Below, in pieces: positions 12,342 through 61,480 of a DNA stretch of 64,000 bases (the stretch's first letter is position 1; every line of letters starts with the position of its first letter). Under the pieces are notes generated by a model that was not told where the DNA came from, made no database searches, and was given only the letters and a program-made list of their open reading frames with translations. The stretch lies in the NCBI GenBank assembly GCA_963575645.1, contig OY754465.1:2914001-2978000 (forward strand), read 5' to 3'. Made by a program: the position numbers and the translations under genes. The DNA comes from Xanthostigma xanthostigma (taxonomy: Eukaryota > Arthropoda > Insecta > Raphidioptera > Raphidiidae).

Positions 12342-12548
12342 AGGAATATAAACAATAGATAGTTTTCCTGTCGATTTTTTTTATTTACTTTTACATTTAA
12401 ATGTCTACCGAAGAAAATATACGAATTGCTTCTTTCCTTACGAGATGCAACGACACAATATATCGAAAAGTTTAAATTTATTTTCCGAACATTTTTCAAA
12501 AGACGTATGTTTTGTTGAACTGTAGAATTTTAATTTTAAAAGTCAATA

Positions 12549-13040
12549 ATAAAATATTTTTAACAAAAAAATTGAACCGACTTCACACTAAAAAGTAAAA
12601 AATAATTGCGTATTGAAATGTTTTGGAGTCGGTGTCAGCCAAAATGAAATCTATTCCGAGAACTACACCGACTCCAAAACATTTCAATACTTACGCAATT
12701 ATTTTTTACTTTTTAGTGTGAAGTCGGTTCAATTTTTTTGTTAAAAATATTTTATTTTTCTCTTTTTAGTGTTAATCTAACACTAAAAATCGGTGAACAT
12801 ACATAAAAAACATTATGCGTTTCTTTGAAATTTGAGAGTTTCCCTCGATTTCTCCGGATTCCACCATCAGATCCTGACTTGGTTCCGATGGGACCACCTC
12901 TGAGGTGCACTCTTTCGAATAAAAAAAAAAATTGAAAATCGGTCCATAATTGACGGAGAAATCGGTGAATATACATAAAAAAAAAAAAATATACAGACGA
13001 ACACAGAACCTCCTCCTTTTTGTTGAAGTCGGTTAAAAAA
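12549..13040 (-). mobile_element. Foldback element with CCGACTTC tail, copy 1
   Basis: 12549-12635 and 12668-12756 form a near-perfect inverted repeat of ~85 bp (outer ends AATATTTTTAACAAAAAA, inner ends with GTTTTGGAGTCGGTGT). To its right lies ~280 bp ending in reverse complement of AACCGACTTCAAAAAAGGAGG. The same hairpin-plus-tail layout is present in opposite orientation at 47498-48028 and with a different stem at 50061-51020. No transposase; the 74-codon frame at 12752 is a shadow. Confidence 0.75.
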
Positions 13041-22203: not shown

Positions 22204-23145
22204 CTACTTATGTAATATATAAGTGAATATAAAAGTTCACTAATTATATAAGTGAATATAAAATTTCACTAATTATATAAGTGAATATAAAAGTTCACTA
22301 ATTATATAAGTGAATATAAAATTTCACTAATTATATAAGTGAATATAAAAGTTCACTAATTATATAAGTGACCATTAAATGTCATCTGAAATCAATAATT
22401 TTTTGATTACATGTTTTTTAAAATCTTTAATCATTCGTTACTTTCACTAGTATAATAACCTTTTATATTTTTACAAGTCGATAAAAAATTTAAAACAAAA
22501 TAAAGAATTAGAGATTTCGCGTCAAAAAACATAACCTTAATTAATTGTTAGTTGCGATCCTATGTCATTGACTATAATTTAAAATCGGTTAAAAACAATA
22601 GTATAGACGCAATTCTGTACTCTGAATCTATGAAAATATAATTAAAATAATCTAATTAACTTACCTGATAAATTATATTACTTGTTTGTTTATTGCTTTA
22701 CAAGGAACTTGCTATAGAACGATCTGTATTCTACATGAATAATAATAAGTATCTATAGTAACCGTATGGAGGCGCCACAAGCGACACGTATAAACTCAGG
22801 GGTCACTATTCTGACAGTGAATTTTACTTGAATTCACTATTCCGGAAGTGAATCAGAAGTCACTATTTTAACATTTTACATGAATAATAATAAGTATCTA
22901 TAGTAACCGTATGGAGGCGCCACAAGCGACACGTATAAACTCAGGGGTCACTATTCTGACAGTGAATTTTACTTGAATTCACTATTCCGGAAGTGAATCA
23001 GAAGTCACTGTTTCAAATAGTGACATTTTCACTATTTCAGTGTTAGAGAGTAAATTTATTAGTGAATAATTTGTTGTGAAAATCACTGATTATTAAATTA
23101 ATACAGCTTCACTTACTCAATTAGTGAAAACACTAATTCATGTTT
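22204..23145 (-). mobile_element. AGTGAA-saturated element, copy 1
   Basis: Inverse relative of 32962-34061. From left to right: five 29-bp tandem units (22214-22358) alternating AAAAG and AAAAT before TTCACTA; a unique middle; two 145-bp units (from 22733 and 22878) holding GGAGGCGCCACAAGCGAC; and an end rich in TTCACTA/TAGTGAA words, closing with AACACTAATTCATG. No coding frame. Its left TIR is not visible, so this copy is probably truncated there. Confidence 0.75.
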
Positions 23146-28004: not shown

Positions 28005-28066
28005 AAATAAAAAATTTGTTTTTTTCGGCAAATTTTTGACAATAAATCGAACTAAAAAGTGGAAAA

Positions 28067-28363
28067 TAAATATAGTTTAAAAAAAAACTAAATAACACGC
28101 TTTATATCGAACTAAAAAGTAAAAAATATTTTTTTTAAAATAAGCTTAAAACAATAATGAATAAAAAAGTATTATTGTGAAAAAAGCGTGGGGCGCTCGA
28201 TGTACGAAAATGTGAAACAAAGCGCCCAACGCTTTTTTCACAATAATACTAGTATTTTTTATTCATTATTGTTTTAAGCTTATTTTAAAAAAAATATTTT
28301 TTACTTTTTAGTTCGATATAAAGCGTGTTTTTTAGTTTTTTTTAAAACTATATTTATTCTTGT
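28067..28363. mobile_element. Foldback element, stem type 2, copy 1
   Basis: Arms 28067-28194 and 28218-28363 are near-perfect inverted repeats, with a ~25-bp loop centred near 28206. Outer sequence TTTAAAAAAAAACTAAA, then CTAAAAAGTAAAAAAT, then GAAAAAAGCGTGGGGCGC next to the loop. The outer words recur at 47111-47372 and CTAAAAAGTAAAAAATA also in the arms at 12549 and 47760. No coding capacity. Confidence 0.85.
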
Positions 28364-30678: not shown

Positions 30679-31257
30679 CGCCGATTCACACTATAGTTCG
30701 CTCTCGGTCCAGTCTCGGTTCGGTAAAATCTTACTGTATTCACACTATCATTCTGGGTTCGATCACGGTTCAATCTCGATTTGCAAGAAGTCTGATGTAT
30801 TTCCTTTGCAATACAATTTACTTTATTTCATAAGTACAATTTTTCTAGTTGTCTGATAATGTCGTTCGATTTTTCAATTGAAGAATTAGCTGTTCTTCTT
30901 GATGAAGATTCGGCAAATAAGAAAAGAGTGAAACGCAAGACAACGAAGAGAAGAATATGGGTGAATCCAAGCTTATTAGCGAGGAAAACGGAAGACGAAT
31001 ACTACACCCTGTACCGTCATTTAATAGACGAATACTGCATTTGAAACAAAAACCTATTCATAAGTCAGGCAAAGTCCGATCACGCTGCAGCAAAATATTC
31101 TTCTAAACGGATCGGTGCCGGAGCGTGATTGGATCCGAACTTGAGCGGTGCTGCGATAGTATGAATACGCTCATTGTTTCTTGTGTAAGAATCATTTACC
31201 GAACCGAGATTGGACCGAGAGCGAACCGTGACCGGCACTATAGTGTGAATCGGGCCT
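30679..31257 (+). mobile_element. Internally deleted PIF/Harbinger element
   Basis: Left end CGATTCACACTATAG...TTCGCTCTCGGTCCAGTC and right end its inverse, finishing GTGTGAATCGGGCC then TTAA. The left arm lacks 12 bp present in the right arm. Between them lies the first ~61 codons of a Harbinger transposase (30859-31044). PIF/Harbinger duplicates a 3-bp TTA/TAA target; the right flank fits (TTA/TAA), the left does not clearly. Not related by sequence to MITE family C. Confidence 0.8.
30859..31044 (+). pseudogene. Harbinger transposase N-terminal remnant
   Basis: Starts at a real ATG, MSFDFSIEELAVLLDEDSAN, then KRRIWVNPSLLARKTEDEYY and TLYRHLIDEY before an early stop. The W-V-N/H-P-L-L-x-R and Y-x-x-L/Y-x-x-L/H-L-x-D-x-x/E-Y pattern is the conserved start of insect PIF/Harbinger (DDE_Tnp_4, nuclease HARBI1-like) transposases. 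The DDE catalytic core is completely missing, so no activity is possible. The well-kept frame suggests a fairly recent deletion derivative. Confidence 0.8.
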
Positions 31258-32662: not shown

Positions 32663-32959
32663 ACTAGCTGCAACCCGCGACTCCGCCGCGGCCCGCGATT
32701 GAGATGAAGGGCGACAGCGACAACAGTTTTCAAATTTTTATATACCCGCACCTCCACCATAAAAATACTGTACTTCCACCATGTACTCAATATAGCCGGT
32801 GTTTTTAGGATTTTAATTATTTATCAAAATTAAATTGAGCCTATGTTACTCGGGAATAGTACAGCGTTTTATTAGTGAAAGAATTTTTACAATCGGTTCA
32901 GATGTTCTTGAGATTGCCCTCTGCATACAAACTAACAAACAAATACCTCTTTATAAAAT
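32663..32959 (+). repeat. Short CCCGCGACTTCG-type repeat
   Basis: Starts ACTAGCTGCAACCCGCGACT and contains GCCTATGTTACTCGG and AATCGGTTCAGATG, as in the common insect repeat also seen at 56032. It ends at the TA where the AGTGAA-rich element is inserted. Confidence 0.6.
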
Positions 32960-32961
32960 TA

Positions 32962-34061
32962 CTCTCTAAACATGAATAAGTGAAATTTTTTACTAATTGC
33001 GTAAGTGAATCTGTGTTCACTTGATAATCAGTGATTTTCACAACAAATTAGTGAATTTTCACTAATAATTTTACTCTTTAAAACTGAAAAAGTGAAAATG
33101 TCACTATTTGAAATAGATCATTTCCGGAATAGTGAATTCAAGTAAAATTCACTGTCAGAATAGTGATACCTCTGATTTTATACGTATCGCTTGTGGCGCC
33201 TCCATACGGTTACTATAAATACTTATTATTATTCATGTAGAATGTTGAAATAGTGACTTCTGATTCACTTCCGGAATAGTGAATTCATGTAAAATTCACT
33301 GTCAGAATAGTGATACCCTTAATTTTATACGTATCGCTTGTGGCGCCTCCATACGGTTACTATAAATACTTATTATTATTCATGTAGAATGTTGAAATAG
33401 TGACTTCTGATTCACTTCCGGAATAGTGAATTCATGTAAAATTCACTGTCAGAATAGTGATACCCTTAATTTTATACGTATCGCTTGTGGCGCCTCCATA
33501 CGGTTACTATAGATATTTATTATTATTCATGTAGAATGTAGATCGTTCTATAGCAAGTTCCTTGTAAAGTGATAAACAAACAAGTATATAATTTATCAGG
33601 TAAGTTAATTAGATTATTTTAATTATATTTTCATAGATTAAGAGTAAAGTATTGCGGGTGTGCTATTGTTTTTTACCGATTTTAAATCATAGTCAATGAC
33701 ATAGGATCATAACCAACAATGAATTAAGGTTATGTTTTTTTTGACGCGAATTCTCTAATTTTTTATTTTGTATTCAATTTTTAATCGAAAGTAACCAAAA
33801 AATAAAGATTTAAAAAAATCTGTAATCAAAAAATTGTTGATGTCAGATGGCTCTTAATGGTCCATTTATATAATTAGTGAATTTTTATATTCACTTATAT
33901 AATTAGTGCATTTTTATATTCACTTATATAATTAGTGAATTTTTATATTCACTAATTCATATTGTGAGTATTCACTAATTCTGCGTGGTACGATTTACCA
34001 TTGACAAATAGTGAATATGCACTTGTAATTAGTGAAAAATCACTGATTCATGATTAAAGAG
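32962..34061 (+). mobile_element. AGTGAA-saturated element, complete copy
   Basis: 1100 bp flanked by TA (32960-32961 and 34062-34063). Imperfect inverted ends CTCTCTAAACATGAATAAG / ATTCATGATTAAAGAG extend about 34 bp including AATTAGTGA. Inside are three 147-bp repeats (from about 33097, 33244 and 33391), a unique middle, and three ~30-bp units with TATAATTAGTGAATTTTTAT (33873-33960). The words AGTGAA and TTCACT occur throughout in both orientations. No transposase. TA flanks suggest Tc1/mariner-like targeting, but I know no such family. Confidence 0.8.
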
Positions 34062-34211
34062 TAGTATATTTTGTGTGTAGTGTTAATTAAACGGCAATCA
34101 GTTAATACTTATATTAGCGAATAAATTATATAATTACCCGAGACGGACCTGATGTGCCGACGAAACACTCAATATTTTGAAGGTCATGAACCTATCCGTA
34201 TAATTTATACT

Positions 34212-38180: not shown

Positions 38181-38490
38181 TTCAAATAAATAAAATTGTC
38201 GACCAATTTTTCTCAGACCAATATATTGACAAATAACAAATCAATACAACATAAGATGACGTTTCGATCCGGCTTTCAAACATCATCATTCGTGTAATTA
38301 GATAATAATTAATAATTTAATGCTAATTAATTTTTATATTTTTCTGAAGAAGTTTCAAAGCCGGATCGAAACGTCATCTTATGTTGTATTGATTTGTTAT
38401 TTTTTATTTTGTCAATATATTATTGGTCTGAGAAAAATTGGTCGACAATTTTATTTATTTGAAGAATTCTATTCAGACGTTAATCAAAGA
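38181..38490. repeat. Long inverted repeat, GAAACGTC-type
   Basis: Arms 38181-38287 and 38345-38463 pair almost perfectly; each holds GTCGACCAATTTTTCTCAGA and GACGTTTCGATCCGGCTTT or the inverse. The right arm continues to GACGTTAATCAAAG (38474-38487). Fragments occur at 17085-17165 and 36497-36540. Paired termini with GGATCGAAACGTC recall Penelope-like element terminal sequences, but no RT is present. Confidence 0.65.
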
Positions 38491-40064: not shown

Positions 40065-40497
40065 CTAGCGGCCCGCTCCGGTTCGTCCGAATTTGTAAAC
40101 TGCTTCTTAAAGACGATAGATATAATTCTGCAGAATGTATTTCGTTTGCGGCCCGGCGTCTGAACTACTAGCTTTGAGCAAATTCTACCAGCTTTGCTTC
40201 TGAACTAATAGCTTTGAGCGAATTCTATCAGATGTCGCCACTTGGTGCTAAAACAGTTTTTTTTTGTTTGCTTCTGAACTTATAGCTTTGATTAAATCCT
40301 ACGAGATGTCGCTACATGTTACTAAAACAGTTTATTTTCACAAAACACCGTAATTTTGTACAAAATATTTAATAAAATCTATCGTATAGCGTAAGATGGA
40401 CCAAGCGAGACACATTTACAAAATGTCATTAAAATCGGTTCAGTAGTTTCGGAGATTAGCGCGGACGAACATCGTGACACGAGATTTTTATGTATAT
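40065..40497 (+). repeat. Dispersed repeat family L, longest copy
   Basis: Starts CTAGCGGCCCGCTCCGGTT and ends near GAGATTAGCGCGGACGAAC plus ATCGTGACACGAG. The middle repeats TAGCTTTGAGCRAATTCTA two or three times. It abuts the palindromic element at 40494. Confidence 0.7.
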
Positions 40498-40640
40498 ATC
40501 GCCGGGATATTGTCAAACCCGTGATATTATAATTTCACTTAGTGAAATTATAATATCACGAATCTTTGTCAATCGTGATATTGTAATTTCACTAGTGAAA
40601 TTACAAAATCACGGATTTGACAATATCCCGGCGATATATA
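40494..40640. repeat. Nested double palindrome, about 147 bp
   Basis: Outer arms ATATATCGCCGGGATATTGT and inverse enclose two further palindromes: GTGATATTATAATTTCACTT with its inverse (40521-40559), and GTGATATTGTAATTTCACTA with its inverse (about 40574-40613). Almost every base can pair. Looks like a small MITE made of stacked inverted repeats. TA-rich ends hide any target duplication. Confidence 0.8.
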
Positions 40641-41858: not shown

Positions 41859-42477
41859 TCTATACTAATATATAAAGCAGAAGAGTTTGTTTGTTTGTTT
41901 GTTTGAACGCGCTAATCTCAGGAACTGCTGGTTCAAATTGAAAAAAAAAATTTTTGTTGGATAGCCTATTTATCGAGTAAGGCTATAGGCTATATAATAT
42001 CACGCTACGACCATTAGGAGCGGAGCATTAATGAAAAATGTTGCAAAATGTATCTCAAAAATAAGCTTTTATTCAGGTGAAATGTACTAACTAAATATAC
42101 TCATATTAGCGGTATGCGTACACAACGTCGGATGGCTCAATCGGTAGAGCATGCGACTGTCGATATCAGGGTCGTGGGTTCAAGCCCCACGTTGGGCGTA
42201 AAAATTTTTATTTTTTTTTATCTTCTACATTGCTTTCTTCTAAGGCTTACATTTAAATTTATTTTAATTTTAAATTAATTAATAAAAAAAAAATATTAGT
42301 TTAAAAGAGTATAAATACTGCTTTTTATCGACAAAAGCTTTTGAACGGTAACTCTGATCATCATGAAATTTGGACACAACATTCATCTCGGTAAACTAAG
42401 ATGAATGTGTATACTCATATTCCTCCCTTCCTCATTCGTTCTTTTACATCCGGGTGAAACCGGACGGGACCGCTAGT
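41859..42477 (-). repeat. Composite repeat with tRNA-Lys-like segment, copy 2
   Basis: Reverse orientation: begins TCTATACTAATATATAAAGC, contains TGAACGCGCTAATCTCAGGA and ends CGGGACCGCTAGTA. The tRNA-like part is at 42127-42198 on the plus strand, so it keeps the same orientation relative to the repeat as in copies 1 and 3. Confidence 0.75.
42127..42198 (+). pseudogene. tRNA-Lys-derived sequence, degenerate
   Basis: GGCTCAATCGGTAGAGC (D-arm) and GTGGGTTCAAGCCCCAC (T-arm) are intact. The anticodon arm (GACTGTCGATATC) has an extra base and has lost CTT. Not functional. Confidence 0.7.
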
Positions 42478-46270: not shown

Positions 46271-47110
46271 GTATATGGGCATTAGTAAGTGAAACAAAAA
46301 AAATATATCCGTGTCATCTAAAATTTGAACTATGGTACCTATGTAGAAAATGCTGAAGTGTTGCCAACTTGTTTATACTAATCTATAAAATTTCTCTGAT
46401 ATACTTATATAAACAAAAACAGTTTTTTCTATTTGCTACATTATGATTATTGCTTGTTACAAAACAGAATATATTATTTTTTTAAATACAAAAGAATTGG
46501 CGCATTTACAAATATTTTGCGTTCGCTGGTATATTATGTTGCCGAATTTTATTATTCATTTATAACTAGTTGATGCCAACGGTGGAACATGAAATAAATT
46601 ATTACTGCTGCATCCGCTCCAAAAGCACTAAACATCTTTATGCATATGTGTATATATGGACATTTTGCTTTTATGCCTCATGGGCAAATTGATAGCTATT
46701 TTACAATCACAAACATAATTATTTCAGAGTTGGTATTTTAATGTTCAATTAAGTGACGATGGGACCAAAGAGATATTACATATTATGGAGTGCTAGTGTT
46801 GGTACTACTGTAAAAAATTTACATTTTTGAGCGCTTTTCTTAGATAAAGTATGGTAAAAATGCAATTTAAGAAAAAAAATTACTTGCGTTTGGGGAAGTC
46901 ACTAATTTTTAACACTCTTATATTAGCTTGACCTGTATGTATGGATGTATGTAAAGGAATTTTTCAAGAAGTCTGATTAACTTGAAAATTTGCACACGTG
47001 TCAAGGGCCGATGACAAAACAATTATTTAATAAAAATAAATTTGAATTTAAAAATATTGAAAAAACTTACTTTTGATGTCTTTTTGAGACCAAAAACTTA
47101 AGAAAATAAA
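46271..47110. other. No feature recognised
   Basis: AT-rich; no coding signal or shared repeat. Confidence 0.4.
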
Positions 47111-47372
47111 TTATAGTTTAAAAAAAACTAAAAAAACACTAAAAAGTAGAAAATAATTATTAACAAAATAATTCAATTATAGTAAAAAAGCGTGGGGTGC
47201 CAATATTTTCATTATAACTCTAATTTATAATTAATAGCTACTAATAAATTGTGACATTTAATATCAAGCACCCCACGCTTTTTTACTATAATTGAATTAT
47301 TTTGTTAACAATTATTTTCTACTTTATAGTTCGGTTTGTTATTAAAGCGTTTTTTTTACTTACTATAATTTT
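47111..47372. mobile_element. Foldback element, stem type 2, copy 2
   Basis: Arms 47138-47200 and 47266-47327 are inverse, ending at GCGTGGGGTGC / GCACCCCACGC beside a ~65-bp loop. The outer words TTTAAAAAAAACTAAA and CACTAAAAAGTA match 28067. The inner part of the stem differs from that copy. Confidence 0.8.
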
Positions 47373-47497: not shown

Positions 47498-48028
47498 AAC
47501 CGACTTCAAAAAAGGAGGAGGTTCTATGTTCGACTTTATATATATTTTTTTTTATGTATGTTCACCGATTTCTCCGTCAATTATGGACCGATTTTCAAAA
47601 ATTTTTTTAATTCGAAAGAGTGCACTTCCGAGGTGGTCCCATCGGAATCAAGTCAGGATCTGATGGTGGAATCCGGAGAAATCGAGGGAAACTCTCAAAT
47701 TTCAAAGGCACGCATACTTGGCCTATACCCATTGCAATACTTTATCTAACACTAAAAAGAGAAAAATAAAATATTTTTAACAAAAAAATTGAACCGACTT
47801 CAAAATATGCACTAAAAAGTAAAAAATAATTGCGTATTAAAATGTTTTGGAGTCGATGTCAGCCAAAATGAAATCTATTCCGAGAACTAGAGACATGTAA
47901 GATTTAAATTGCTACTTTCGAATTCCGATGTGACACCGACTCCAAAACATTTCAATACGCAATTATTTTTTATTTTTTAGTGCATATTTTGAAGTCGGTT
48001 TAATTTTTTTGTTAAAAATATTTTATTT
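47498..48028 (+). mobile_element. Foldback element with CCGACTTC tail, copy 2
   Basis: Tail first: AACCGACTTCAAAAAAGGAG at 47498, through GTTCACCGATTTCTCCGTCA and GGATCTGATGGTGGAATCCG. Then a hairpin 47760-48028 whose arms match 12549-12756 (GTTTTGGAGTCG, ACTAAAAAGTAAAAAATAAT) with a longer loop. Same design as copy 1 in the opposite orientation. Confidence 0.75.
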
Positions 48029-61238: not shown

Positions 61239-61480
61239 ATTCAGAACCCAAAGGAATGGTGAGACCTCTGGTGAGAAATGCGCCGAACTGTCCTAAGAGG
61301 GGTTTTCGACAGGTAAACTATGGAGGCATAAGGTAAACATTGATTTAGAAAAGCATGATGGAGGCTAGGTTAGCTTCCATCATGCTTTTCTAAATCAATG
61401 ATTACCTGTCAAAAACCTCCCTTAGGACAGTTCGGCGCATTTCTCACCAGAGGTCTCACCATTCCTTTGGGTTCCGAACA
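61239..61480. mobile_element. Foldback MITE with ~100-bp arms
   Basis: Arms 61239-61357 and 61376-61480 pair almost perfectly (CCCAAAGGAATGGTGAGACC, AATGCGCCGAACTGTCCTAA, TTTAGAAAAGCATGATGGA). The left arm has an extra ~18 bp (TATGGAGGCATAAGGTAA). The loop is ~18 bp. No coding; no other copy in the window. Confidence 0.85.

Follow-up and report, generated by a model that had tools for sequence, protein, structure and literature searches.

A TA-flanked, non-autonomous transposon family with AGTGA-rich arms in Xanthostigma xanthostigma

Short motifs repeated near the ends of DNA transposons have been described in several superfamilies. In the maize hAT element Ac/Ds, a short word recurs within the terminal ~200 bp, where it is bound by the transposase, and is kept by gene-less copies (PMC3260210). 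En/Spm and other CACTA elements carry asymmetric subterminal motif arrays that are bound by an element protein (PMC2613891), and the mosquito hAT element Herves has a subterminal word bound by its transposase (PMC3143072). Tandem repeats near the ends provide extra binding sites in Galileo, of the P superfamily (PMC3688188), and give rise to satellite arrays in Tetris (PMC4079207). Sleeping Beauty, a Tc1/mariner element of the IR/DR type, inserts at TA and carries outer and inner copies of its end that act as binding sites (PMC7827188). Finally, MITEs, typically about 400 bp long, include gene-less elements with internal tandem units, such as a Xenopus tropicalis Tc1-mariner MITE with miDNA4 and lepidopteran (GTCY)n elements, in which the units form satellite or microsatellite DNA (PMC9659126).

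Here we describe a 1.1-kb element located in a 64,000-bp stretch of contig OY754465.1 (hereafter the window). Like Ac/Ds, it belongs to a set of gene-less copies that keep a subterminal word, but the word and the ends differ and TA is duplicated instead of 8 bp (PMC3260210). Its motif arrays recall those of En/Spm, which differs by its CACTA ends and, in the soybean element, by a three-base duplication (PMC2613891), and its subterminal word recalls Herves, which belongs to another superfamily, uses the word CG/AATTCAT and encodes its own transposase (PMC3143072). It shares tandem repeats near the ends with Galileo (PMC3688188) and Tetris (PMC4079207), both of which have long inverted ends, with an 8-10-bp duplication in Tetris. 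It departs from Sleeping Beauty (PMC7827188) in that an inner copy of the end is clear in the left arm alone, the window copy has 31 short AGTGA sites and no transposase was found. The family median of 779 bp exceeds the typical MITE length and, in contrast to the tandem-repeat MITEs, at most five 147-bp units were found in any of 40 copies (PMC9659126). TE-LNCR of Spodoptera (PMC3184123) was also considered, from its published description. The first-pass annotation of the element knew of no described family with this design; Ac, En/Spm, Herves and Galileo are precedents for it.

Structure of the window copy

The element has terminal inverted repeats that can be aligned over 49 and 45 bp, somewhat beyond the ~34 bp proposed initially, with a score of 46 that none of 4904 random 50-mers from the window reached (best score 31). 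The element starts with CTCT and finishes with AGAG, and the longest stop-free frame in the stretch 32901-34120 has 49 codons. TA lies on both sides, as had been noted, and is all that the two flanks have in common. Joined without the element, the flanks read CTTTATAAAAT-TA-GTATA, and a homologue of this site lacking the element, found elsewhere in the window (Table 1), contains a single TA. Therefore, the flanking TA is best read as a target-site duplication. We take the homologous stretch to resemble the tail of an RTE-type retrotransposon.

Table 1. Features of the element and related stretches, in window coordinates.
Feature	Position	Strand	Evidence
Non-autonomous DNA transposon, entire copy	32962..34061	+	Ends, words, frames
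Left terminal inverted repeat, start CTCTCTAAACATGAATAAGTGAAA	32962..32997	+	End alignment, copy consensus
Right terminal inverted repeat, CTCTTTAATCATGAATCAGTGATT	34026..34061	-	End alignment, copy consensus
Inner copy of left end (CTCTTTAAAACTGAAAAAGTGA), 112 bp inside	33074..33110	+	End-likeness score; recurrence in copies
Possible inner copy of right end, weak	33914..33970	-	Score 15 before AGTGA
Three 147-bp tandem units	33118..33558	+	Repeat comparison; usual copies have one unit
Three 29-bp units in tandem, based on inverted AGTGA...TCACT pairs	33866..33953	+	Repeat comparison
Middle without AGTGAA, absent from some other copies	33574..33875	+	Word map, copy comparison
Left cluster of AGTGA/TCACT words, often inverted pairs	32979..33573	.	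Word map
Right cluster of AGTGA/TCACT words	33876..34044	.	Word map
Left TA target-site duplication	32960..32961	.	Flank reading; empty-site homologue with one TA
Right TA target-site duplication	34062..34063	.	Flank reading; empty-site homologue with one TA
Homologue of insertion site, element absent	41861..41925	-	74% over 66 columns across junction
Second, end-damaged copy: two 145-bp units, 5.4 29-bp units	22214..23145	-	87-88% identical
Self-complementary stretches	28065-28358, 38181-38463, 12538-12766, 47764-48028, 47108-47371, 61240-61478, 40493-40640		

The inner copy of the left end outscored all 131 AGTGA sites in the remainder of the window and is also carried by the second window copy. 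The score of the right inner candidate was reached at 2 of these 131 sites and in 184 of 9686 random stretches, and two other sites within the element reached 16. Both sets of internal repeats reported by the first-pass annotation were recovered, the 147-bp units with 97% and 86% identity to the reference copy, and the ~30-bp repeats as three units of 29 bp.

We counted 22 AGTGAA words in the 1100 bp of the element, 11 on each strand, compared to 0.78 ± 0.85 in 1000 dinucleotide shuffles (maximum 4). This density, to which the tandem units contribute part of the words, is far above the control and agrees with the dense scatter in both orientations noted at first. The words do not, however, extend over the whole length: a spread of the motif through the entire element is ruled out by a middle of ~300 bp lying between two clusters (33559-33865, 307 bp), which contains no AGTGAA and one AGTGA. 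In each arm, and likewise in the 147-bp units and in the 29-bp array, AGTGA words are above the window background.

Seven stretches of the window, about 150-300 bp long, match their own reverse complement at 77-90%, like snap-back elements (Table 1). An 82-aa frame at 30796-31044 (+), which we take to resemble a Harbinger-type accessory protein, had no Pfam match.

A dispersed family in the host genome

The host assembly (623 Mb, 28 contigs) was searched by homology and by pattern. The homology search gave 69 matches from the best 40 of 779 candidates, and the exact 24-bp end TACTCTYTAAWCATGAATNAGTGA had 161 matches compared to none for its reversed control, showing that the ends (CTCTYTAAWCATGAAT; terminal consensus CTCTYTAA) are shared among copies. 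Elements with both ends at no more than 3 mismatches and 300-2500 bp apart were collected by script; 40 were listed, one of which is a second reading of another (L025), leaving 39 copies of 443-1862 bp (median 779 bp) with a longest stop-free frame of 106 codons. Eight of the 39 are longer than listed because the inner repeat was taken as the end, the outer one being more damaged. Among loci retrieved by homology, 28 of 43 ends have TA on their outer side and 15 lack it; among those retrieved by pattern, TA lies beside 5 of 7 partner ends. It flanks both ends in 26 of the 39 copies and at least one end in 36, some of these having been fetched with TA in the pattern.

The median AGTGAA density of the 39 copies was 16.7 per kb inside versus 1.24 in the flanks. 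All but one of the copies were denser than their own flank (38/39), the sole exception (L024:2603-3299) being possibly a false pairing. The shared ends, the TA duplication with its empty site and these word-rich bodies bear out the first-pass reading of a mobile element with repeated subterminal sites. Furthermore, the best pairwise identities between copies over more than 300 bp were 90-93%, so that the family looks old. Pattern scans of prokaryotic genome contigs and of phages gave no match, and those of viral contigs a single 18-mer match of 20 bp, taken as chance.

The left consensus (30 copies) begins CTCTCTAAACATGAATTAGTGAAATTTTCACTAATT and the right consensus (39 copies) begins CTCTCTAAACATGAATCAGTGATTTTTCACTAATT. 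The end repeat contains an inverted AGTGA/TCACT pair of its own and recurs about 81-117 bp inside many copies; by a looser count, an end-like stretch lies 75-125 bp inside one end in 26 of 39 copies. A single 147-bp unit is present in 30 of the 40 listed copies, three to five units in 5, and no unit of at least 110 bp in the other 5. Since the usual copy has one unit, the three-unit array of the window copy represents an expansion. At C4:3792273-3792900, the inner left arm (query 85-155) is repeated about four times at a spacing of 158 bp, compared to 147 bp for the unit.

Retention along one 779-bp copy (L028) was assessed in 37 copies, which were picked by ends or homology, a selection that favours the arms. 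It reached 95-97% at positions 126-250 (inner left arm) and 97-100% in the right arm (93% in the last bin), and was 65-81% in the middle. At positions 26-100 retention was only 74-81%, not exceeding that of the outer middle; the cutting of eight of the 39 copies at the inner repeat accounts for part of this. Copies of 443, 449 and 462 bp consist of the left ~290 bp and the right ~155-175 bp, the middle being lost.

With inverted ends, a target duplication, many copies and no coding capacity, these elements are a real non-autonomous, MITE-like family of terminal-inverted-repeat transposons. It appears to be a new family of a known type, no published description having been recognised in the literature searched. 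The superfamily is likely nearest to Tc1/mariner: the TA duplication is that of Tc1/mariner, and the inner end copy per arm (IR/DR), a trait of some members, is clear on the left and weak on the right. TA duplication is shared by the fungal PHISTA and ESTA elements (PMC12730594). A hAT element was rejected, as it needs an 8-bp target duplication and the flanks have only TA in common, and so was a CACTA/EnSpm element, which needs CACTA-like termini and a 3-bp duplication instead of CTCTYTAA ends and TA. Helitrons and Helentrons are not known to have terminal inverted repeats with target duplication and are ruled out by the presence of both here.

Search for a partner transposase

A longer autonomous copy between the shared ends, which the first-pass annotation proposed to look for, was sought in the host genome and none was found. 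Matches to the DDE_3 (95), Transposase_1 (19) and DDE_1 (150 scored of 317 candidates) profiles lie at least 15 kb from the ends that were listed, 148 of the 161; of the 150 DDE_1 rows, 70 were checked by script and the others visually. By visual count, contig C10 holds 83 of the 150 scored DDE_1 (pogo/Tigger-type) matches at 7.87-16.36 Mb; none of the 148 listed family ends falls in 7.5-16.5 Mb of this contig.

Of three long pairs of exact ends that were retrieved, one (L062) turned out to consist of two short neighbouring copies, while L063 and L064 are copies with stretches absent from the other listed copies and with no frame of at least 70 codons inside the element. A 4.9-kb pair (L090) was rejected as an autonomous element because it is an ordinary copy interrupted by an LTR retrotransposon. 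This insert (L090:377-4806; C1, near 50.09 Mb) is bounded by identical 145-bp LTRs and accompanied by a GTAAT duplication; its reverse transcriptase and RNase H matches are above the Pfam cut-off and its integrase matches below it, and the domain order is that of Ty3/gypsy elements.

Ten representative transposase loci were read (six DDE_1, three DDE_3 and one mariner). Within 4 mismatches, the family end was absent from all ten; at 5 mismatches, seven matches were spread over four of them. Their best end-alignment scores were 19-26; for 200 random window pieces the median was 21 and the highest score 24. The locus that scored 26 (L086), slightly above chance, has inverted ends of its own; such ends were clear in 7 of the 10 loci and none were clear in L081, L088 and L089. 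Since the best 40 candidates were scored per DNA search and ends were paired at 300-2500 bp, a partner that is rare or long could have escaped detection. The partner may have been lost, or may be too diverged or too long for the searches made.

Possible roles of the AGTGA words

The ends, the duplication and the lack of genes point to cut-and-paste insertion at TA by a trans-acting transposase. We consider it probable that this is an old, multi-copy, non-autonomous family whose transposase also binds the AGTGA sites of the arms. A transposase made elsewhere would recognise the terminal 16 bp for cleavage and would bind, in both arms, AGTGA sites that often form inverted AGTGA...TCACT pairs; several molecules per arm could then bring the two ends into proximity. 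The 147-bp and 29-bp units would be arm pieces whose duplication in some copies yields more sites. A role of the words as extra transposase sites is plausible by analogy with the Ac hexamers, the TNPA motifs, the Herves word and the tandem repeats of Galileo. The retention of word-rich arms in the shortest copies speaks for this reading; the negative partner search, the equal conservation of word and other columns, the uneven retention along the left arm and the 15 ends without TA speak against it.

Alternatively, in the same TA transposon, binding might be confined to the terminal repeats and the inner copy on the left, the other AGTGA words being passive remains of old arm duplications. We regard this as rather unlikely, yet several observations fit it. 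The word sits inside the terminal repeat, so that duplication of an arm piece copies the word too, and many words are carried by tandem units. Furthermore, conservation is not higher in word columns than in the rest, either between the two window copies (3 of 56 differing versus 52 of 550 others, p = 0.46) or in the arm alignments (p = 0.36 and 0.40). The comparison thus gives no evidence of selection on single sites between copies, or of a function for each word, a result to be anticipated where copies evolve neutrally once inserted. Conversely, copies with a single 147-bp unit are still word-rich (16 words in the 779 bp of L028), and word orientation alternates above shuffled order. The 31 AGTGA sites of the window copy show 21 strand alternations versus 15.1 ± 2.6, a value reached by 1.9% of 10,000 order shuffles; this figure is generous and the alternation inflated, since repeated units make the sites non-independent. 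This alternation makes the inverted pairs look like a feature.

There is little to recommend the idea that the words act by structure, with inverted AGTGA...TCACT pairs forming hairpins or cruciforms for a single-strand route or replication stalling. Single strands of the arms do fold better than shuffles (33866-34061, z -6.75; 32962-33264, z -3.75) and the middle does not (33559-33865, z -0.07). However, any dense inverted word folds, so this result is not independent support; strong folding of the arms is a consequence of the inverted pairs and cannot discriminate between models. In addition, a double-strand cut-and-paste route is indicated by the TA duplication and the inverted ends. A role as a host-protein binding array, or as the satellite seed suggested initially, is very improbable: the 147-bp and 29-bp units vary in number, but satellites form long arrays, 30 of the 40 listed copies hold a single 147-bp unit and none more than five, and dense words accompany transposon ends in 38 of 39 copies.

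The preferred reading, a trans-acting transposase that also binds the arms, can be taken further, albeit tentatively and with doubt. A TA-targeting transposase might assemble on many palindromic AGTGA sites per arm, like TNPA on En/Spm, whereas Tc1/mariner enzymes use 1-2 sites per end. Copies that duplicate units would acquire additional sites and might have an advantage in competing for the enzyme, and the partner could be of an undescribed TA-targeting lineage.

A TA target site together with a dense site array seems to be an unusual pairing; in other respects the family is an ordinary one among the repeats of a repeat-rich animal genome. Its copies, which have one, three, four or five 147-bp units and keep or lack the middle, form a natural series in which to study whether a gene-less transposon benefits from additional subterminal sites when competing for a shared transposase.
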